Shown one piece after another: positions 15,305-28,903 of a stretch of DNA of 64,000 nt. Each line of letters opens with the position of its first letter. Positions within the stretch are counted from its first letter, which is position 1. Under the pieces are notes generated by a model. It was not told where the DNA came from and made no database searches. It saw nothing but the letters and a program-made list of their open reading frames with translations. The stretch is from an uncultured Piscirickettsiaceae bacterium (GTDB lineage: Bacteria > Pseudomonadota > Gammaproteobacteria > Methylococcales > Cycloclasticaceae): assembly GCA_913061075.1 (NCBI GenBank), contig CAJXSK010000009.1, positions 1-64,000 on the forward strand, in the 5' to 3' direction. Made by a program: the position numbers and the translations under genes.

Positions 15305-15381
15305 CGGGGTGTAGCGCAGCCTGGTAGCGCAACTGCTTTGGGAGCAGTGGGTCGGGAGTTCGAATCTCTCCACCCCGACCA
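15305..15381 (+). tRNA. tRNA-Pro (anticodon TGG)
   Basis: A full cloverleaf can be drawn: acceptor CGGGGTG pairs with CACCCCG, and the anticodon arm ACTGC-TTTGGGA-GCAGT gives anticodon TGG. The T loop is GTTCGAATC, and CCA is encoded. Length is 77 bases. It is first in a three-tRNA cluster. Confidence 0.96.
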
Positions 15382-15394
15382 TTTTTATGATGAA

Positions 15395-15471
15395 GCGCTT
15401 GTAGCTCATCTGGATAGAGCATCGGCCTTCTAAGCCGAGGGTAGCAGGTTCGAGTCCTGCCAAGCGTACCA
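15395..15471 (+). tRNA. tRNA-Arg (anticodon TCT)
   Basis: Acceptor GCGCTTG pairs with CAAGCGT (terminal G-T wobble). The anticodon arm TCGGC-CTTCTAA-GCCGA gives anticodon TCT, reading AGA/AGG. The T arm is GTTCGAGTC and CCA is encoded; 77 bases. It lies 13 bases after tRNA-Pro. Confidence 0.96.
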
Positions 15472-15502
15472 TCAGCTTTAAAAGCTAAAAATAATCGTCA
15501 AT

Positions 15503-15579
15503 GGTGGGTGTAGCTCAGTTGGTAGAGCCCCTGACTGTGACTCAGGTTGTCGAGGGTTCGAGTCCCTTCATCCACCCCA
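15503..15579 (+). tRNA. tRNA-His (anticodon GTG)
   Basis: The gene starts with the extra G-1 typical of tRNA-His, pairing with C73. Acceptor GTGGGTG pairs with CATCCAC, the anticodon arm CCTGA-CTGTGAC-TCAGG gives anticodon GTG, and CCA is encoded. It is third in the tRNA cluster. Confidence 0.96.
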
Positions 15580-16943: not shown

Positions 16944-19900
16944 ATGAGTTCATGTTTGATTCATTTACATTCTATATTGTGCTTTTTTTATAAAAATAAT
17001 AACGCCTTTGGGATGCTTGTGAATAAATTATTTCGTATTTTGGTTATTTTGTTGTTGCCTGTTAATGCAATGGCGGCTCTTACAACCGCTGTAACGCTTG
17101 TTACAGGCCAACCAGGAAGTATTCTTCCCGGAGAACAAACGCAAATTGAAATTACGTTAGGGAATAGTAATACGGGTTCAACCATAACAGGGCTCGCATT
17201 CAACTCGCCACTTCCAGCTGGCTTTCCAGACGGTCTAGAAATCGCAGGTGCAGCAACTTATCAATGTACAGATTATGTTGATCCCCCTGGCCCGGCAACA
17301 GGCCCCACAACAACACCTGGCGTGGGTACGTTAACGGCGACTATTGGTGGGCAATTAATCAGTTTGACTGGCGGGGTAATTCCAGCAAGAGCAAGCAACA
17401 CAGACGGCTCTTGTACAATAATTATTCCTGTTACTGCGGGTACCTCTACAGGTAATAATGCGACGTATACGTACGACATTGCGAATAATGCTGTTACAGG
17501 TAATGACGGTGCGGCTGTTGCTAATGTGGGCGCTGTAAGCCAAAGCATCAATGTATTAGCATTTAACCAACCTGTTATTAGCAAAGGTTTTTCAGCATCA
17601 ACAGTGACGCTTGGTGGAAACGCATCAACATTGACATTCAGCGTGACAAATACGAACAGTGTTGCAATTCCTAACTTCAGTATGACAGATGCATTTCCGC
17701 AACTAGGTGGCAGTGCCATTATTGAGGTGGCAAATCCTGCTAATGCAACGAGTAATTGTACCAGCGGGACACCGTCATTCACGCCCGTAGTTGGTGCGGA
17801 TACTGTCGTGGCGACGGGCGATATTCCGGCCAATGGTAGCTGTACCTTTACTGTTGATGTTATTGCTTCACACACAAACGGTGGATACACAACAGGGGCA
17901 CAAACAAATAGAATTACAAGCGGCGGTGATTTCACCAATGATTTAGGTATTCCGGCTGCAGGAGACGCAACGAGTAATATTACGGTGCGATCATCATTAA
18001 GTGTTTCAAAAGCGTTTAATAATAGTGTGTTATCTAGCGGGCAGTCTGATACGTTTACCATTACATTAAATAATGACTCAAATAGCGCTCTAACGATCAC
18101 AACGTTCGATGATAATCCTATTGACGGAACGGCGGGTATTGGTGGGGGAGCAGGTGTATTAGGTTCTGGCCTTGTCGCAACAGGTGTTGCAAGTACCTGC
18201 GCCGGAGCTGTAGGTTCGCTATTAAATGCAGGCGATGGTATTCGAATAACAGGTGGTGTCATACCAGCTAACAATTCTTGTACGGTAACCGTTAACTTTA
18301 CAGCGGCTGCACAAGTAACACAGGTTCCTATAACGTATACCAATACTATTGCCGAAGACGCCGTTAATGTAACAACACCAAATGTAGTGAGCCAAACGCG
18401 TTCTGCAACAGTATTAGTAGCAGATGAGTTACGGGTGCTTAAAACGGCGAATCCATCTATTGCAGCACCTGGCAATCCAGTTAATTATGTTATTACTGTC
18501 CAGAATTTCTCTAACAGTGTTATAAATGCGGTAACTATTAATGATGTTCTACCGGTAGGGTTCACTTATCTAACAGGCGTTATTGCTGGTAATGATTTTA
18601 ATCCGACATTAACAGCAGCTTGCGGCGTGTTAACAGAAACAAGTGTGTTAGGTGACGTGGCAGCACAATTTTCTGTAGCGACACTACCTGCCAGGACAGC
18701 TATTGGTTCTCCCGGGGCATGTGATATCAGCTTTTGGGCAATGTTAGACCCTCTTGCTGCTGATGGTGTGGCAACAGCTAATACCATTGATGCAGGACAG
18801 GTTTGTTATAACGCCGGTACAACGTGTAATGGTTCAGGTGTTAGTTCAGGTACTACGACTGCGGAAACAACCGTTTTTTCAGCAACCAAACGTTTTAATA
18901 ACACGTCAAGTACGGTCACCTTACCTGAAGGAACCATTGCAACGCTTAGTGTTACGTTAACTAATATTTCAGCGAACCCGTTAACAAATGTAACGTTATC
19001 AGATACGTTCCCAAGCGATGGTTTAGGTCAATTACAAGTCGCAACGCCGGCGAATGCTTCTACTACATGTGGTGGAACAGTAACAGCCGTGGCTGGTACT
19101 ACCTCACTAGCCTTAACTGGAGGAACCGTTCCAGCGAGAGCGGCAAACGGAACAGGGGCAAATGGTACGTGCGTTATTAATGTTGATGTTATTGGCCCTG
19201 CGGGAACATTTGATAATGTTGCCCAACTAGCAGGTACGCAAACCTTTGCTAATGGCGGCACTGGCAATATTACGCAATTCGATACTAATACGGCGCGTCT
19301 TGTTTACTTATCTTCATTGTTGGCAAATAAAAGTTTCAACCCAACAGCTGTTTCATCTGGTGGTACATCGCGTGTGTCGATTAGGCTATCTAATTCAGGG
19401 GCAGTGGCGTTAACAAATGTGTCTGTAACTGACCCATTACCGGCGGGGATGGTTTTAGCAAACCCCGTTAATGCGGCCTCAACTTGTGCAGGGTCACCTG
19501 TATTTACGTCTGCGGTTGTTGGCGCAAGTTCCATTACAATGCAGGGTGCTAGTATTGCGGGTCTGGGCTCTTGTGATGTTCTCTTTGATGTGGTCGCAAC
19601 GGGTGCAGGAGATTGGATAAACACCATTCCTGTAGGAAATATTACGGCTGATGGTGGCATTATTAATACGACTGCTGTGACAGATACACTGTTATTTCAG
19701 CCCGGCACGGGGATTAGCGTTGGTAAAACATCCAACCCAAGCACGCTTAGTTTTCCAGGAGAAACAAGCCAGCTAACCATTACGTTTACTAATGGCACGA
19801 ATGCCGTTACTAACATGGCGGTCACAGATTATTTTACAGTCGATGGAACTGTTGGAGGCGCATTAAATGGGATGGTTGTTGCGGTAACCCCTAATGCATC

Positions 19901-22670
19901 AACCACTTGTACAGGCGGCACAGTAACAGCTGTTTCTGGGGGCACACAAGTTGCCTTATCAAATGTTTCATTAGCAGCTAGCCAAGCATGTACGGTAACG
20001 GTCGATGTGTCATCTACTAGTATTGGCGGTATTACTAATTTTATCCCTATTGGTTCGATCACGTCTGATCAAGGATCTACAAATGCAGGCCAAGCAACAA
20101 CTAGTTTAACGGTACAAAGTAATTTGGGTGTTGTGAAAGAATTCACGCCCAAAACTATTCTTCCTGGTGAACGGTCTAGATTACGCATTACATTTTTAAA
20201 TCCAACAAATGTAGCCATTGGTGATTTATCTGTCATAGATACAATGCCGGCAGGCGTCACCATACCAAGTGGTGCCAATCCAATAACAACTTGCTTAGGT
20301 GGCGTCGTGTCATCTCCAGCAGCAGACCAAGTACAAGTTGTTAGTGCTAATTTACCAGCAGCGTCTGGTGGCGTATCGACCTCTTGTTATGCTGAAATTG
20401 ATGTGACTTCTGCTGCTCAAGGGGATTACGTCAATACCATTCCCGTGGGTGCGGTAACGGGTGTAGCAGGCGGCTCAACGATTAGCAATTCACAACCGAC
20501 GAGCGACACGTTATCGGTTAAAACACCATTAACGATTCATAAGGCATTTGATAACAATACATTGGATGCAGGTAACCCCGTTGGTTTGACAACGGGCACA
20601 TCGACGGTTAGCCCAGGTGCGTCTTCAACGTTAACGATAAGAATGGACAACCCTAATGCACAGGCACTAACGGGTGTAGCGTTTATAGATGATTTGCCTG
20701 CAAATTTAGTGATTGCACAAACACCAAATGCTAGCACAACGTGTGCAGGTGGTTTTGTAGATGCATTAGCTTCAGCAACCAGCGTGCGTTTGTCTGGTGC
20801 GACTGTGCCTGCCAGTGGGTTTTGTACAGTGTCTGTTGATGTTTTAAGTAATATTTCTGGTAACTATGTTAATTCAATAGCGCCTAACGCGGTCACATCA
20901 AACGAAGGTGTCTCTAACGAAGAAGGAACGAGTGCCGAGTTATTAGTATCAACGCCACCGAGTGTCGATAAACAGTTTGCACCGGCGGTTATTGCTTCAG
21001 GTGGTATTTCTACGTTGACGATTGTGTTCGATAATCAGAATGCAACGGATATTACGTTAACAAGTTCTTTTGTTGATACTCTACCAACATCACCTGGGGC
21101 GATTGTTGTTGCTGGTACACCTAATGTCGTAAAAACATGTCCGGGTGCAGTAACGGCTGCAGCGGGAAGTGGGTCAGTTACCTATGCAAATGGGGCTGTT
21201 ATACCAGCAGGTGGTTGTACTATTAGTGTTGATGTATCGGGCACTGTTGCAGGAGAGCATGTTAACAATATTCCTGCAGGAGACCTACAAACAACAGTTG
21301 GTAATAACCAAACACCTGCGAATACGAGTTTAATCATTAGCCCATTGGGATTTGTCTCTGGGCAGGTATTTACAGACAATAATTTAGTACCAAATGGCGT
21401 TTTTGATAGTGGTACTGATACGCCGTTATCAGGTGTGTCAATTGAGCTTCGTGCAGGCGCAACTTGTGCAGCGCCATTGGCTGTTATTGCTGGGGTAACA
21501 AACCCAACAACAACAGATGGGTTAGGAAATTACTTATTCGCTAACTTACCAGCCGGTACGTACTCTGTATGTGAGCCAGTACAGCCAACTAATACGGCAA
21601 ATGGTACGACAACAGCAGGTGCTATTTCAACAAGTAATGGTAGCTCGGGTACTGCTGGTACAGCAACAAACCCCACTGTAACGAGTAGTGAAATAGAAAA
21701 CATTATTCTAAACGGTGATGGAGCAAGTGGCGAAGTGAGTGGTAGTGCAAACAATACGTTTGCAGAAATTGCACCTTCATCCATTTCTGGTGTTGTATTT
21801 TTAGATCAAAACAATAATGGAGTTCAAAATGGTGCTGATACGCCATTAGTTGGTGAAACCATTGAACTGTTAGACAACTTAGGTGCTGTAATCACATCGG
21901 TCGTTACTGATGCTAATGGAGCCTATAGTTTTACCGGACTTGGGCCAGGTACCTATTCAATTAGGCAACCTAATCAGCCTGCTAGTACCTCTAATGGTCA
22001 AACATTAGCTGGTGTAGTAGCAAACGCTGGAACCGATGGTACAGCTACTAACATAGCAACATTGCCTAGCCAGATATCAACCATTATTTTGCCACCTAAT
22101 ACATCGGTAACGGCGAATAATTTTGCTGAAATTCCGCAGACCAGAAGAATATCAGGCTCTATCTTTTTAGATTATGACAGTGATGGTATAGAAAATAATT
22201 CAGACCATGGCATTGGTGGGCAAACAGTTAATTTAACGGGGACAGACATTAATGGTAACCCGGTTAATTTAGTAGTAGTTACAGCTAATGATGGTTCTTA
22301 TGTTTTTGATGGATTGCCAGAAGGAACGTATACGGTTACACAACCTATTCAACCTGTCGGCACAACAAACGGGATAACGACTGTAGGGAGCACTGGAGGT
22401 ACAGCAACAGCTATTGGTGTAACACCTAGTGCTATATCTGTTATAGATTTAACGGGTGCAAATACGGTATCTGGCGCTAATAATTTTGCTGAATTACCGG
22501 GGGCCGCTGTTGATTTAGCTATTACTAAAACGCATAGCCCAGCCAGTTTTGGTGCAGGGTCAAACACAGGGTTTTACACCATTACACCAAGCAATATTGG
22601 TACGTTAGATTCATCTGGAACGATAACGATTGTTGATACATTACCTGCAGGAATGACAGCATTTGCTTAG
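16944..22670 (+). CDS. Giant DUF11/SdrD-B repeat surface protein, N-terminal part (ends at in-frame TAG)
   Basis: The 1908 residues begin with a signal peptide (RILVILLLPVNAMA-A). ATG 17013 is an alternative start that removes 23 residues. Next come about nine DUF11-type beta-sandwich units of 130-150 residues, opening at roughly residues 210, 350, 495, 645, 790, 925, 1060, 1195 and 1340 with phrases such as VVKEFTPKTILPGERSRL. Most units have two cysteines. Three SdrD-B-like units follow near 1470, 1615 and 1735 (ISGVVFLDQNNNGVQNG). A further DUF11 unit at about 1860 is cut by TAG at 22668-22670. The same frame stays open to 24719, so the intact gene would encode about 2590 residues. It probably forms an extracellular fibre or adhesin, but the substrate is unknown. 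Confidence 0.8.
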   Translation: MSSCLIHLHSILCFFYKNNNAFGMLVNKLFRILVILLLPVNAMAALTTAVTLVTGQPGSILPGEQTQIEITLGNSNTGSTITGLAFNSPLPAGFPDGLEIAGAATYQCTDYVDPPGPATGPTTTPGVGTLTATIGGQLISLTGGVIPARASNTDGSCTIIIPVTAGTSTGNNATYTYDIANNAVTGNDGAAVANVGAVSQSINVLAFNQPVISKGFSASTVTLGGNASTLTFSVTNTNSVAIPNFSMTDAFPQLGGSAIIEVANPANATSNCTSGTPSFTPVVGADTVVATGDIPANGSCTFTVDVIASHTNGGYTTGAQTNRITSGGDFTNDLGIPAAGDATSNITVRSSLSVSKAFNNSVLSSGQSDTFTITLNNDSNSALTITTFDDNPIDGTAGIGGGAGVLGSGLVATGVASTCAGAVGSLLNAGDGIRITGGVIPANNSCTVTVNFTAAAQVTQVPITYTNTIAEDAVNVTTPNVVSQTRSATVLVADELRVLKTANPSIAAPGNPVNYVITVQNFSNSVINAVTINDVLPVGFTYLTGVIAGNDFNPTLTAACGVLTETSVLGDVAAQFSVATLPARTAIGSPGACDISFWAMLDPLAADGVATANTIDAGQVCYNAGTTCNGSGVSSGTTTAETTVFSATKRFNNTSSTVTLPEGTIATLSVTLTNISANPLTNVTLSDTFPSDGLGQLQVATPANASTTCGGTVTAVAGTTSLALTGGTVPARAANGTGANGTCVINVDVIGPAGTFDNVAQLAGTQTFANGGTGNITQFDTNTARLVYLSSLLANKSFNPTAVSSGGTSRVSIRLSNSGAVALTNVSVTDPLPAGMVLANPVNAASTCAGSPVFTSAVVGASSITMQGASIAGLGSCDVLFDVVATGAGDWINTIPVGNITADGGIINTTAVTDTLLFQPGTGISVGKTSNPSTLSFPGETSQLTITFTNGTNAVTNMAVTDYFTVDGTVGGALNGMVVAVTPNASTTCTGGTVTAVSGGTQVALSNVSLAASQACTVTVDVSSTSIGGITNFIPIGSITSDQGSTNAGQATTSLTVQSNLGVVKEFTPKTILPGERSRLRITFLNPTNVAIGDLSVIDTMPAGVTIPSGANPITTCLGGVVSSPAADQVQVVSANLPAASGGVSTSCYAEIDVTSAAQGDYVNTIPVGAVTGVAGGSTISNSQPTSDTLSVKTPLTIHKAFDNNTLDAGNPVGLTTGTSTVSPGASSTLTIRMDNPNAQALTGVAFIDDLPANLVIAQTPNASTTCAGGFVDALASATSVRLSGATVPASGFCTVSVDVLSNISGNYVNSIAPNAVTSNEGVSNEEGTSAELLVSTPPSVDKQFAPAVIASGGISTLTIVFDNQNATDITLTSSFVDTLPTSPGAIVVAGTPNVVKTCPGAVTAAAGSGSVTYANGAVIPAGGCTISVDVSGTVAGEHVNNIPAGDLQTTVGNNQTPANTSLIISPLGFVSGQVFTDNNLVPNGVFDSGTDTPLSGVSIELRAGATCAAPLAVIAGVTNPTTTDGLGNYLFANLPAGTYSVCEPVQPTNTANGTTTAGAISTSNGSSGTAGTATNPTVTSSEIENIILNGDGASGEVSGSANNTFAEIAPSSISGVVFLDQNNNGVQNGADTPLVGETIELLDNLGAVITSVVTDANGAYSFTGLGPGTYSIRQPNQPASTSNGQTLAGVVANAGTDGTATNIATLPSQISTIILPPNTSVTANNFAEIPQTRRISGSIFLDYDSDGIENNSDHGIGGQTVNLTGTDINGNPVNLVVVTANDGSYVFDGLPEGTYTVTQPIQPVGTTNGITTVGSTGGTATAIGVTPSAISVIDLTGANTVSGANNFAELPGAAVDLAITKTHSPASFGAGSNTGFYTITPSNIGTLDSSGTITIVDTLPAGMTAFA
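22668..22670 (+). other. In-frame TAG inside the giant repeat gene
   Basis: The codons read GCA TTT GCT TAG CCA ACA. Translation continues without frame change as PTTGDWICSVAGQIVTC, which completes the DUF11 unit interrupted here. So a single nonsense codon, not a frameshift, divides the gene. Confidence 0.9.
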
Positions 22671-22769
22671 CCAACAACAGGTGATTGGATTTGTTCTGTA
22701 GCAGGGCAAATAGTTACTTGTAACAGTAGTGCGGTTATAACTGCAGGCGGTGTAGGAAGCGATATTTTA

Positions 22770-24719
22770 TTGCAAGTAGCTGTAGCAGCAGGAACTGAAG
22801 GACAAATTCTAACAAATAATGTCGTTATATCGGGCGGCAATGAACCACCAGGGTTTGATGGTAACAATGATGATAGTGACAGCGTTTCAATTGCAGCAGC
22901 GGCGGCAGTTGAAGGCACTGTTTGGATAGACGCCAATCATGACAGAGTTCTAGACGGTTCTGAACAGCTAGTGCCGGGTTGGGTCGTTGAGCTGGTCTTA
23001 AATGGTAATACGGTTGCCTCTACATTAACAGACAGCAATGGGGACTACTCATTTACTGGCTTAGCACCAGGTTCAGGTTATCAAATACGATTCACAGAAC
23101 CAACAAGTGGCGCTGTGTTAGGGCAACCATTGCCGAATGAAACAGGTGGCGCTTCAACGAGTGGTGTAACGGACCCTGTAAATAACCCAGCCGGTGCAGA
23201 ATATGTGGACGGTACATTAAACAACCTTACATTACTAGCTGGTACAACAACGTCTAATCAAAGTTTGCCGCTTGACCCATCTGGTGTCATTTATGACTCA
23301 GTGACACGTAACCCTGTCGCTGGTGCGACGGTAACGCTCGTGAGTGGGGGTGTTCCGGTACCCAATATTTGTTTAGTTGGGGCAAATAACAACCAAGTAG
23401 TTGGTGCGTTAGGCATATATCAATTCTTATTGGTAAACCCAGCCCCTGTTGGATGCCCCGGCGATGCGGTTTATTTATTAGAAGTAGTGCAACCAAGTGG
23501 TTATTTGCCACCGGCTTCAACAATTATTCCTGAAACAGCGGGTGGTCCATATACGCCAGTTGGTGGAATAGATGCAATTCAACCACAAGCAACACCACCA
23601 ACAGGTGGGCAGGCGACTACTTATTACTTTGATTTTAACTTAACGTTAGGTGGGTCAGGCGTCATCAACAATCATATTCCGATTGACCCCATTCTAGAAG
23701 GTGCATTATTAGTCACTAAAACAACGCCAAAGAAAAATGTTGTACGAGGTGATTTGATTCCTTATACGGTCACAGCGACAAATACATTAACAGCAACGTT
23801 AACGAACTTATCGCTTCAAGATCAAATACCTGCTGGCTTTAAATACATATCCGGTTCATCTTCTTTAAATGGTACGGCGCTAGAGCCAATTGTTGCCGGC
23901 CGTTTATTAAGTTGGAGTGGTTTAACCTTTTTAGCGGGTGAAACAAAAACCATTCAACTTATATTGATTGTTGGTTCGGGTGTGAGTGAAGGCGAATATG
24001 TAAACCAAGCTTGGGCTAATAATGATATCGCTAATGCTAGAGTGTCGAATGTGGCGTCTGCAACAGTGAGAGTTGTTCCTGATCCATTATTCGACTGTTC
24101 TGACCTCATCGGTAAAGTGTTTGATGATGAAAATATCAACGGTTATCAAGATAACAATGAAAAAGGCATTGCTGGGGTTAGATTAGCAACTGTTAGAGGC
24201 TTGTTAGTGACGACAGATAATTATGGGCGATTCCATGTTGCCTGTGCCGATGTGCCTAATGAATTACATGGTTCAAACTTTATTATGAAGCTAGATGAAC
24301 GAACATTACCATCTGGCTACCGTGTAACAACTGAAAACCCACGTGTTGTTCGGTTAACACGCGGCAAAATCACTAAGTTGAATTTCGGTGCAGGCATTCA
24401 TCGTGTGGTACGAGTCGACATCAACAACCTAAGCTTTGATAAAGAGGGAGAAACATTAAGAGTCAATTCAATTTCTCAAATAGATGAGCTTGTTGACATA
24501 CTTAAAGAAAAACCTTCATTAGTCCGATTGGCTTATTTTGAAGGCAAAGGTGAACCTAAGGCAGATGTTGAAGAGAAAATGAAACTATTTATTGATGAAT
24601 TAACCTCGAGATGGCAGTCATGTGATTGTTCATTTTATGAGCTAACAGTAGAACAAGAAATAGTGCCTCAGGCGTTTGGAAAAACCAGCTTAAATAGCCT
24701 AGTAGGAGATAAAAAATGA
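22770..24719 (+). CDS. Giant repeat surface protein, C-terminal part (downstream of the in-frame TAG)
   Basis: This piece is in the same frame as 16944-22670 and continues it; the coding sense resumes directly after the TAG at 22671. The start at 22770 is only the first usable start codon and has no clear ribosome binding site. Contents in order: rest of a DUF11 unit, an SdrD-B-like unit (VEGTVWIDANHDRVLDGSE), a further variable unit (SGVIYDSVTRNPVAGATV) and a DUF11 unit (LLVTKTTPKKNVVRGDLIPY). Then come a carboxypeptidase-regulatory-like unit (IGKVFDDENINGYQDNNE) and a C-terminal stretch (ISQIDELVDILKEKPSLVRL) resembling a degenerate OmpA-like peptidoglycan-binding domain. Its stop overlaps the start of the next gene by four bases (ATGA). 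Confidence 0.75.
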   Translation: MQVAVAAGTEGQILTNNVVISGGNEPPGFDGNNDDSDSVSIAAAAAVEGTVWIDANHDRVLDGSEQLVPGWVVELVLNGNTVASTLTDSNGDYSFTGLAPGSGYQIRFTEPTSGAVLGQPLPNETGGASTSGVTDPVNNPAGAEYVDGTLNNLTLLAGTTTSNQSLPLDPSGVIYDSVTRNPVAGATVTLVSGGVPVPNICLVGANNNQVVGALGIYQFLLVNPAPVGCPGDAVYLLEVVQPSGYLPPASTIIPETAGGPYTPVGGIDAIQPQATPPTGGQATTYYFDFNLTLGGSGVINNHIPIDPILEGALLVTKTTPKKNVVRGDLIPYTVTATNTLTATLTNLSLQDQIPAGFKYISGSSSLNGTALEPIVAGRLLSWSGLTFLAGETKTIQLILIVGSGVSEGEYVNQAWANNDIANARVSNVASATVRVVPDPLFDCSDLIGKVFDDENINGYQDNNEKGIAGVRLATVRGLLVTTDNYGRFHVACADVPNELHGSNFIMKLDERTLPSGYRVTTENPRVVRLTRGKITKLNFGAGIHRVVRVDINNLSFDKEGETLRVNSISQIDELVDILKEKPSLVRLAYFEGKGEPKADVEEKMKLFIDELTSRWQSCDCSFYELTVEQEIVPQAFGKTSLNSLVGDKK

Positions 24720-27700
24720 AATATTTAATCCCTACATTATTTAGCGTCCTTCTTTCATTTACAGCGCTTGCGTCAGATAAAGAAAAGTCTTGTCCAGTAA
24801 ACGAAAAAGGTGAAGACAAATTCTGCGAACATAAAGAATGGCGTGAAGAAGCAACGCTTTCAGACGATGGTTCCATTAGAACGGTTTCAATCCCTGAAAA
24901 CGCAGAGCGTCAGTTAATTAAGCAGAAAGTGACGCTATGGTCTTTACCAATAGATAATACATCACACTATACCCACGATGATTTAGAACAGGTAAAAGTG
25001 GATGTTTCTTCTACACATTTTGCATCAGCCAGTGCGACGATTGAATTATCTAAAGTAAAGCGAGTAGATGAGCTTCTTAAGCAACTTAAAGGTAAAAACT
25101 CACTTAAACTGGAAGTCATTGGTCATACCGATAGTCAGCCATTATCATTAAAGGCGCAACGTTGGTTTAACAATAATCAAGCGTTATCTCAAGCACGAGC
25201 AAAAGCGGTCGCTAACTATTTGCAAAAACAGCTTAACTTGTCTAACGCGTCCATTATTATTAAAGGTAAAGGAAGCAAAGAACCCATAGCGAGTAATGCT
25301 ACCCCTTCTGGGATGGCTAAGAACAGGCGTGTAGAAATTTTAGTGTCGTATGAGAACGTTGTTAAATCTCATCAAATCGCATTTCAACAGATCATGAGCC
25401 ATCAACATGTTTGCCAGGGTGAAATGTTATCTAAGCAATCAGATAAGGGTTTCAATATACGTATTGATGGTGAATCGAATGCAGGTTTGGTAGAAGATAA
25501 TGAAGATGAACAACGCTGTATAGACAAAAAATTATCAGTAGCCGACATACGGCTTCAATATGATAACTTAGCCGCCGCGCCTTTGCTAAATGCATCTGCT
25601 TGGCCTGCAACGTTTGTTAATAATGAAACGGTTAAATTTAACGCTTACAGTAATTATTTAGCATGGGTTGAACGTGCGGAAATACGTATTTTTAAAGCAG
25701 CTGATTCTGACAATGGTAAGCCGTTACACGTTATTAAATTGGATAACAACTTATCCGCTGATTGGGGCGTTAAATCACAATCGCCAGAAGCATTGAAATA
25801 CCGGTTGCGTGTATATGATAAAAAAGGGAGGTTCGATGAAACAACCAGCCTACCCTTATGGCGAGTCGCTAAAAGAAAATCACTCGATGATGAACAGCTG
25901 TCTGCCAAAGAAAGCGCGTTTATAGCGTACGGTAAAACACGGTTAGAGAAACACAATATTCCAGTGCAAGGTGGAAGTGTGACAGTCAGCGGGCGACGTG
26001 TGCCTGGTGATGAAAGCGTATTTTTTATGGGACGCTCGATACCTGTCGATTCAAAAGGAAACTTCGTTGCACGTCAAATAGTCCCTAATGGGCGACATAC
26101 TATTGAAGTAGTGACCTTGGATTCAAAACGTAGCGGAACGTTATATTGGCGCAATATTGAGTTCAAATCCGATGATTGGTTTTATGTGGCTATTGCTGAT
26201 ATTACGGCCGGTAGATACAAGGCTAATAATAATGCAGTCGTCGTGACTAAAGATAAACAGCACTTAGCTGACAATAGTTTTATAGATGGACGTTTAGCGT
26301 TTTATACAAAAGGTAAGTGGCGTAATAAATACACTGTCACAGCCAGTGCAGATACAAGAGAGCAGCCGCTAGAAGATCTTTTTTCAACCTTTATGGATAA
26401 AGACCCAAGAAGTTTATTACGCCGTTTAAATGATAAAGACTATTACCCTGTATACGGTGATGACAGCACGCTAGTTGAAGATGCGCCAACACAAGGAAAG
26501 TTTTACGCAAAAATTGAAGATGCACGTTCAAGTGCTATGTGGGGAAATTTCAAAATTGTTCAACAAGAAACTGATTTAGCGCAAATTAACCGAGGCTTGT
26601 ATGGGGCCGTTGTTGATTGGAACAGTGAATCATTCAATAGCCGAAGCGAAAGCATAACGAAAGTTAATGTATTTGCTGCAGAACCTGGCACACAGGCCGC
26701 TAGGGAAGAGTTCCGTGGAACAGGTGGCTCGTTGTATTACCTAGGTCATCAAGACATAGTGAATGGCTCAGAACGCGTACAGGTTGAAGTGAGAGACAAA
26801 GATTCTGGCATTGTTTTAAACGTTAATTCGTTAGTAGCAGGGCAGGATTACCAAGAAGACGCTATTCAAGGAAGAATACTATTGACCCGTGCATTACCCT
26901 CAACAGCCGATGATAGTCAGTTAGTGCGTGCGGGAAGTTATTCTGGTCACCCTGTGTTTTTGGTTGTTAACTATGAATACGTCGGCAATTTAACCAACTT
27001 TGACGAGTTAGCGGTAGGTGGAAGAGCATCGCATTGGTTAAATGATTCAGTTCGTTTAGGCATAACGGGTTCACACCAACAACGTGATCAACAAGACCAA
27101 AACTTAACAGGGTTAGATGTTCTGTTCCGTAAAACGGCAGAAACCTATTTAAAATTAGAAGCAGCTAGAACAGAAGGGCCAGGTGTCAGTTCCAATGGTT
27201 CAATTGATGGCGGCTTCAGCTTTTCTTCAACAGGTGTTAACCCATCTAACAACCAAGGCGCTAATGCATTCCAACTAGAAAGTGGGTTTGTGTTTAATGA
27301 CTTTGCAATGGATATGGATGGCAAAGGTCATGTTTATTTACGGCGTAGAGAAAAGAACTTCACCGCACCTGGCCAACAAACAAGCTTTGATACGAACCAG
27401 TTTGGTGGTGGCATTAACGTACCATTAAGTGATAAAAATAGCGTTAGTTTGAAAGTGGACTTAACTGATCAAAAAGGCGGTGTTGATCAAGAGATTGCAG
27501 AAGCAAATGTGCATCATAAGCTAAATGAAGACTGGAGAATTAGTGCCGGTGTTCGAGGTGACAGCCGTCAAGACAATACAGGCACACCGTCGAATAACAA
27601 TGACGGTGATCGCGTAGATTTAACACTTCAAGCAGATTATGGCATTGATGAAGAGTGGGGCGCGTTTGGTTTTGTACAAGGGTCATTATTAACCAATGGT

Positions 27701-28834
27701 GATAGAGACAAAAACAACCGACTTGGTTTAGGTGGGCATTTTCAAGCAAATGATCGTTTAGGTCTTAACGGTGAAGTGTCATCTGGCACAGGCGGTTTTG
27801 GTGCATTGATTGGTGCGGACTATAGATTATCAGACCGTACAACGACCTATTTAAATTATGCACTGGACCCAGACAATGCAAACAGTGGCATTGGTAACAG
27901 GCAAGGTAAATTGGTGTCTGGCCTTCGTACACGCTACTCAGACTCTATTAGTGTGTATGGTGAAGAACAATTACTACACGGCGAAAGCAATGAAGGCTTA
28001 ACCCATGCCTATGGTGTTGACTTAATTGCAAATGAGCAGTGGAACTTTGGTCTTGCCGTAGAAAGTGGGCATATCACAAACAAAAACAGTAAATTGCGTA
28101 GGCGGGCAGCTAGCTTCTCTGCAAACTATAAATTTGAAGATGTTAAATACGGCGGTAACCTTGAATACAGGCGAGATAACATTGATGGCGACGTCCGTAA
28201 TAATTGGTTAACACGTAATAACTTTGCTTATATGGTCAATGAAGATTGGAGAATGCGCTTTCAATTAGACTTAGCCTTAAGTGATAACAGTAATGATGAC
28301 TTCTTTGATGCCGATTACGCTGAATTAATTTGGGGATATGCGTATAGACCTATTGATAACGATGAGTTGAATTTACTGGTTGAATACAAATACCTTGCCG
28401 ATCAATCACCGTCGGATCAATTTACGGCCAGTGAGCAACAAAACGAATTTGAACAACGTAGCCATGTGTTTTCTGTTGATGCGACGTACGACTTAAACCC
28501 GCGTTGGGCAATAGGCGGTAAATACGCAACGCGTATTGGAGAACTAAGAGCAGGAAGGGGCACAGGTGAATGGTTTAGAAGCCAAGCTCAACTAGGTGTA
28601 GTACGCCTAGACTGGCATGTGGTTAGACATTGGGATGCGCTTATTGAAGCTCGTGTCTTAGATATTGATGAAGCTGAAGATAGACGAGCAGGCTTTCTTG
28701 CTGCTATATACAGACACTTCGGAGATCACCTGAAAGTGGGTGTGGGTTACAACTTCACGGATTTTTCAGACGACCTAACAGACCTTGATTACGACAGTAA
28801 AGGTGTTTTCTTTAATGTGGTAGGCAAGTGGTAA
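24716..28834 (+). CDS. OmpA-domain outer-membrane beta-barrel protein
   Basis: The 1372-residue protein has a signal peptide (IPTLFSVLLSFTALAS). Residues 90-215 are an OmpA-like domain with VIGHTDSQP, LSQARAKAVANYL and NRRVEILV, expected to bind peptidoglycan. Residues of about 270-500 look like Ig-like beta domains. After about residue 500 the sequence alternates polar and hydrophobic residues with many GN, D and aromatic positions. It ends in VFFNVVGKW, with a terminal aromatic as in outer-membrane barrels. Stretches such as YYPVYGDDSTL and FRGTGGSLYYL recur in large OmpA-family barrels I have seen next to DUF11 proteins. The ATGA overlap indicates coupling to the giant repeat gene. I infer that it anchors or exports that protein. 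Confidence 0.78.
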   Translation: MKYLIPTLFSVLLSFTALASDKEKSCPVNEKGEDKFCEHKEWREEATLSDDGSIRTVSIPENAERQLIKQKVTLWSLPIDNTSHYTHDDLEQVKVDVSSTHFASASATIELSKVKRVDELLKQLKGKNSLKLEVIGHTDSQPLSLKAQRWFNNNQALSQARAKAVANYLQKQLNLSNASIIIKGKGSKEPIASNATPSGMAKNRRVEILVSYENVVKSHQIAFQQIMSHQHVCQGEMLSKQSDKGFNIRIDGESNAGLVEDNEDEQRCIDKKLSVADIRLQYDNLAAAPLLNASAWPATFVNNETVKFNAYSNYLAWVERAEIRIFKAADSDNGKPLHVIKLDNNLSADWGVKSQSPEALKYRLRVYDKKGRFDETTSLPLWRVAKRKSLDDEQLSAKESAFIAYGKTRLEKHNIPVQGGSVTVSGRRVPGDESVFFMGRSIPVDSKGNFVARQIVPNGRHTIEVVTLDSKRSGTLYWRNIEFKSDDWFYVAIADITAGRYKANNNAVVVTKDKQHLADNSFIDGRLAFYTKGKWRNKYTVTASADTREQPLEDLFSTFMDKDPRSLLRRLNDKDYYPVYGDDSTLVEDAPTQGKFYAKIEDARSSAMWGNFKIVQQETDLAQINRGLYGAVVDWNSESFNSRSESITKVNVFAAEPGTQAAREEFRGTGGSLYYLGHQDIVNGSERVQVEVRDKDSGIVLNVNSLVAGQDYQEDAIQGRILLTRALPSTADDSQLVRAGSYSGHPVFLVVNYEYVGNLTNFDELAVGGRASHWLNDSVRLGITGSHQQRDQQDQNLTGLDVLFRKTAETYLKLEAARTEGPGVSSNGSIDGGFSFSSTGVNPSNNQGANAFQLESGFVFNDFAMDMDGKGHVYLRRREKNFTAPGQQTSFDTNQFGGGINVPLSDKNSVSLKVDLTDQKGGVDQEIAEANVHHKLNEDWRISAGVRGDSRQDNTGTPSNNNDGDRVDLTLQADYGIDEEWGAFGFVQGSLLTNGDRDKNNRLGLGGHFQANDRLGLNGEVSSGTGGFGALIGADYRLSDRTTTYLNYALDPDNANSGIGNRQGKLVSGLRTRYSDSISVYGEEQLLHGESNEGLTHAYGVDLIANEQWNFGLAVESGHITNKNSKLRRRAASFSANYKFEDVKYGGNLEYRRDNIDGDVRNNWLTRNNFAYMVNEDWRMRFQLDLALSDNSNDDFFDADYAELIWGYAYRPIDNDELNLLVEYKYLADQSPSDQFTASEQQNEFEQRSHVFSVDATYDLNPRWAIGGKYATRIGELRAGRGTGEWFRSQAQLGVVRLDWHVVRHWDALIEARVLDIDEAEDRRAGFLAAIYRHFGDHLKVGVGYNFTDFSDDLTDLDYDSKGVFFNVVGKW

Positions 28835-28867
28835 AAAATGTAAATAATTGAATTATTAAATAAAAAA

Positions 28868-28894
28868 GGCCTTATCAATGATAAGGCCTTTTTT
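28868..28894 (+). terminator. Terminator after the OmpA-barrel gene
   Basis: GGCCTTATC (28868-28876), loop AAT, GATAAGGCC and then T6: a strong intrinsic terminator just downstream of the stop at 28834. The A-tract on the other side also lets it end the minus-strand tRNA-Leu transcript. Confidence 0.9.
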
Positions 28895-28903
28895 ATTGTG
28901 ATT

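Follow-up and report, generated by a model that had tools for sequence, protein, structure and literature searches.

Is a giant, adhesin-like surface gene of an uncultured Piscirickettsiaceae bacterium interrupted by a genuine stop codon, and if so is the stop recent, tolerated by the decoding machinery, or the boundary between two proteins? The gene lies in the window, meaning here the whole stretch of 64,000 nucleotides that was analyzed, on contig C9 (92,845 bases) of a draft genome of 2,256,817 bases in 20 contigs. Inspection of the sequence and of the ORF confirmed a TAG at 22668-22670 in the frame of the ORF 16944-22670, and the same frame is open again from 22671 to a TAA at 24717-24719, as the initial annotation had claimed. 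The giant gene thus comprises 2,591 codons in total, with the TAG as its sole internal stop, separating an arm of 1,908 codons (the head) from one of 682 (the tail); the base directly 3' of the TAG is a C. The features of the locus are as follows.

16944..22670, forward strand: giant gene, first part, an ORF of 1,908 codons plus TAG, with seven DUF7933, three SdrD_B and two DUF11 domains (Pfam)
17013, forward strand: likely start of the giant gene, preceding a signal-peptide-like stretch, by eye
22668..22670, forward strand: in-frame TAG, a column at which both relatives carry the same sense codon
22671..24719, forward strand: giant gene, post-stop part, 682 codons plus TAA, with two SdrD_B and one DUF11 domains (Pfam)
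24716..28834, forward strand: partner gene, intact, 1,372 aa, with an OmpA domain and a long C-terminal part
28864..28900, forward strand: terminator-like hairpin with a T run, 3' of the partner gene, seen by eye and absent from the output of a scan

The partner gene, whose product is probably an outer-membrane barrel, shares 4 bases with the end of the giant frame, has its own ribosome-binding-like AGGAG 7 bases before the ATG, and encodes a protein exactly as long as its counterpart in the closest relative. No further stop is found in the giant frame and its indels relative to the homologues are all whole-codon, so that the initial description of 7.8 kb undamaged apart from the TAG, followed by an intact coupled gene, holds on both counts.

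In order to learn what the site looks like in relatives, homologues of both proteins were sought. The tail gave matches at E 0.001 in 8 of 61 genomes, the own genome counted, and the only full-length close homologues outside the own genome came from G001, an uncultured MAG of Cycloclasticus, the same genus as the window genome; a search of the named genomes with the partner protein likewise returned one locus, in an uncultured Cycloclasticus MAG. Cycloclasticus is a marine oil-degrading bacterium. G001 carries two copies of the giant gene, both single open frames (2,569 and 2,578 codons), which are 86.6% and 70.2% identical to the whole giant protein and 85% and 70% identical to the tail. At the column of the TAG both copies, all from this one MAG, share one sense codon, which is a single substitution away from TAG and does not encode glutamine; both close homologues are thus uninterrupted there, as is the case for nonsense pseudogenes. 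The comparison with these relatives agrees with a mutation or an error at this base, and lends no support to the CAG to TAG change that had been offered as an example. Within the order, the tail alignment matched 5 of 311 genomes at E 1e-20, and none of the six matches listed, which include the own tail starting after the TAG, has a stop inside it. A pattern scan of viral contigs for a further copy of the TAG site gave no match. Around the TAG, the alignment with the closest homologue is gap-free over 50 codons in each direction, which rules out a chance junction of two genes.

We then considered whether selection has been relaxed on the part beyond the stop. Branch counts were taken from codons where both G001 copies agree and the window differs; gapped codons and codons differing in all three copies were left out, as were those where the G001 copies differ from each other and neither matches the window. 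On the window branch, synonymous and nonsynonymous changes amounted to 193/32 in the head, 87.3/16.7 in the tail and 119.2/16.8 in the partner, and on the branch leading to the closer G001 copy to 221.3/37.7, 77.5/13.5 and 156.2/39.8, respectively. No relaxation was found in the tail on the window branch, where its omega is 0.062 versus 0.058 for the head (p=0.62); head and partner do not differ either (p=0.75), nor does the tail between the window branch and that of the closer G001 copy (p=0.85), and for the partner the same comparison gave p=0.075, with the window more constrained. If the omega of the head is used for the constrained state, neutrality of the tail over 4% of the branch predicts 25.9 nonsynonymous changes versus about 17 observed (p=0.043), an age estimate limited by synonymous sites near saturation and by a polarization for which a single MAG supplied both copies. 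Accordingly, these counts would agree poorly with a tail freed from selection for some 4% of the branch or longer. An old, decaying pseudogene is excluded by the equal constraint of tail and head, and an unrelaxed tail means that the stop is new, that the tail is still used, or that the base is wrong. Of the origins first proposed, a recent mutation fits both the intact relatives and a tail constrained as strongly as the head, and a sequencing error fits these two observations as well.

Based on these comparisons, we favor, with a probability of roughly 0.7, the reading that a functional accessory surface gene has acquired its stop very recently, by a single nonsense substitution. The sense codon of the relatives would have changed by one base to TAG, very recently and on this lineage, and translation would end after codon 1,908, leaving an exported repeat stalk that lacks the last 682 residues. 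Such a truncated protein would probably be neither anchored nor assembled, owing to the loss of the C-terminal module that accompanies the outer-membrane partner in other classes, and the genome would then represent an adhesin-minus or leaky variant. Translation of the partner may continue from its own ribosome-binding-like sequence, perhaps at a lower level because of its position 2 kb beyond a stop. The equal constraint of head, tail and partner on the window lineage would also be expected if the tail were still translated.

The strongest competitor, which we regard as clearly less likely, is that sequencing or assembly introduced the TAG, or that the consensus took up a minority variant at this base, the gene being intact in most cells. 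The unrelaxed tail and partner agree with it, as does the TAG being the only break in 7.8 kb, and the genome is a draft. Nevertheless, the sequence surrounding the TAG contains no long homopolymer, and the 27-mer around it occurs once in the own genome, so that a mis-assembled or collapsed repeat copy is not the cause. A scan for interrupted genes over 464 kb, comprising the window and 400 kb of the same genome, also argues against an artefact. It gave 150 stops flanked by 60 open codons on each side. The coding-potential cut was exceeded by 34; most of these have a start codon immediately after the stop, and only four lack an ATG, GTG or TTG in the next 30 codons. Besides the present TAG, with its arms of 1908 and 682 codons, no long-armed interrupted gene was found in the 464 kb: the other three start-less stops have arms of 91/115, 91/73 and 129/64 codons, two of them being antisense inside the giant gene and the 129/64 case lying at C2:95944. 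Candidates at two further stops were rejected after family searches, which assigned the parts at C2:123237 to a CBS-domain-like protein and exodeoxyribonuclease I, and those at C2:1962 to an argD-like gene and an ornithine carbamoyltransferase gene; at C2:59911 the family search covered the downstream side only. The assembly is therefore not rich in errors of this kind.

Functional readthrough, in which the TAG would be suppressed at a useful rate to yield a long anchored form next to a short one, had also been put forward at first, and the present results lend it no support; we consider it very unlikely. It would agree with the strong constraint on the tail and with the C directly after the TAG, which is a weak termination context, and the RNA 3' of the TAG folds with a z of -2.25 versus shuffles. 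However, folds this strong or stronger occur in 15% of 393 windows along the gene pair, and the RNA of the relatives folds differently. Neither relative has the stop, and the short form would be devoid of the module common to other classes. The decoding machinery likewise appears ordinary. A tRNA family search of the own genome gave 32 matches, 31 of which were named by ARAGORN, the remaining one, cut by the end of C7, being tRNA-Glu by eye, and none of the 32 has a CTA anticodon. tRNA-Trp lies outside these matches, as a truncated copy with a normal anticodon where C20 begins; no tRNA-Ala or tRNA-Ile was seen in the draft genome, which means that its tRNA set has gaps. A candidate suppressor tRNA at C1:317121, picked up by an anticodon-arm pattern, was rejected, being antisense inside an ORF which, from its translation, we take to be amidophosphoribosyltransferase-like. 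RF1 is present, the best match to PylS remained below the family cut-off (33.5 versus 178.15 bits), and TAG terminates 8 of 48 ORFs in the window, acnB included, these ORFs having been chosen by eye from the ORF list and not all being proven genes. Genome-wide recoding of TAG is thus rejected, given that the tRNAs found include neither a CTA anticodon nor an altered tRNA-Trp, that RF1 is present, that TAG is used as an ordinary stop, that PylS stays below its cut-off and that the 464 kb scanned hold no comparable gene. That the TAG is a newly acquired leaky switch, by which one gene of a free-living gammaproteobacterium would give both an anchored surface fibre of 2,591 residues and a released form of 1,908, seems slightly less likely still. 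Least likely is a restart of translation after the TAG with the tail made as a separate protein, for which an in-frame TTG at 22770 and GTG or TTG codons further on could serve, but the six in-frame starts listed in 22671-23300 include no ATG, the first lies 33 codons past the TAG, the tail alone has no signal peptide by eye, and in both relatives the gene is one frame.

The last 682 residues, which the stop removes, include the part of the protein common to other bacterial classes. The tail matched 40 plasmid records, and in the 15 that were listed every match spans query residues 348-661, which places the conserved module beyond the TAG. The three records opened, plasmids of Eleftheria terrae, Roseovarius sp. 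THAF9 and Phyllobacterium sp. T1293, belong to alpha- and betaproteobacteria and display the same gene order as the window, a giant DUF11/SdrD_B gene and, 3' of it, a gene for an outer-membrane protein, the two overlapping or within 73 bases in all three; identity to the window is 39-44% for the tail and 34-41% for the partner over the matched parts. Their partners are annotated as OmpA family, TonB-dependent receptor or outer membrane protein transport protein. All three giant genes are annotated as uninterrupted, and that of E. terrae, translated in full (2,647 aa), contains no stop. Based on this conserved association, we hypothesize that the C-terminal module and the partner function together, the module serving as an anchor or as an assembly signal, and consequently the product of 1,908 residues would not work. 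Structure modeling of the last 341 residues gave a pLDDT of 40, too poor for use.

Two known classes offer points of comparison. Premature-stop pseudogenes of bacteria are described as arising by point mutation to a stop (PMC11078800), and the giant gene resembles them in that its stop would likewise stem from a point mutation in a gene that relatives carry intact; it differs from that description in showing no secondary decay yet, and its loss of function is presumed. Fibrillar-adhesin-like proteins carry DUF11 and SdrD_B stalk domains (PMC9210967), and the giant protein shares with them its great length and the repeated stalk domains, including these two, that were found by Pfam. In contrast to that description, it is encoded in a Gram-negative bacterium, has a partner with an OmpA domain, and shows no known adhesive domain among its Pfam matches; neither Pfam nor NCBIfam named an adhesive domain or a surface anchor in it. 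A literature search returned nothing linking Cycloclasticus with DUF11.

The genomic context suggests that such a loss is bearable. The gene pair (16944-28834) sits in the window between rsmJ and tRNA-Leu(caa)-queA. In one other genome (G009) rsmJ and tRNA-Leu-queA are together and the pair is missing there, and in another (G007) about 1.1 kb of other DNA, with no gene pair, lies between rsmJ and tRNA-Leu (L101 11614-12779), so that accessory DNA may be inserted here repeatedly. G001 has the pair twice, at other places, and none was seen beside queA. Among 18 genomes of the genus, the own genome counted and several of the others being incomplete, 2 carry a full-length relative of the partner, which marks the pair as accessory and its loss as tolerable for the strain. 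No direct repeats of at least 11 bases were found at the ends of the cassette. Versus G001, its pS/pN values are 0.61-0.71/0.07-0.09, and those of secF, secD, tgt and queA 0.68-0.78/0.08-0.15; the cassette is no more diverged than core genes, and exchange within the genus is thus possible. As a separate observation, the tRNA-Pro/Arg/His cluster before rsmJ is doubled in tandem in G009 (L099 11165-11932) and present as a single copy in the window (15305-15579).

In practice, annotation will split the giant gene into two at the TAG. It is ordinary for a large accessory surface gene to acquire a single nonsense change, and the TAG by itself matters little; of broader relevance is the two-gene surface system that it interrupts, a repeat-rich giant protein with an OmpA/barrel partner, which is found in three classes of Proteobacteria and is accessory in Cycloclasticus.
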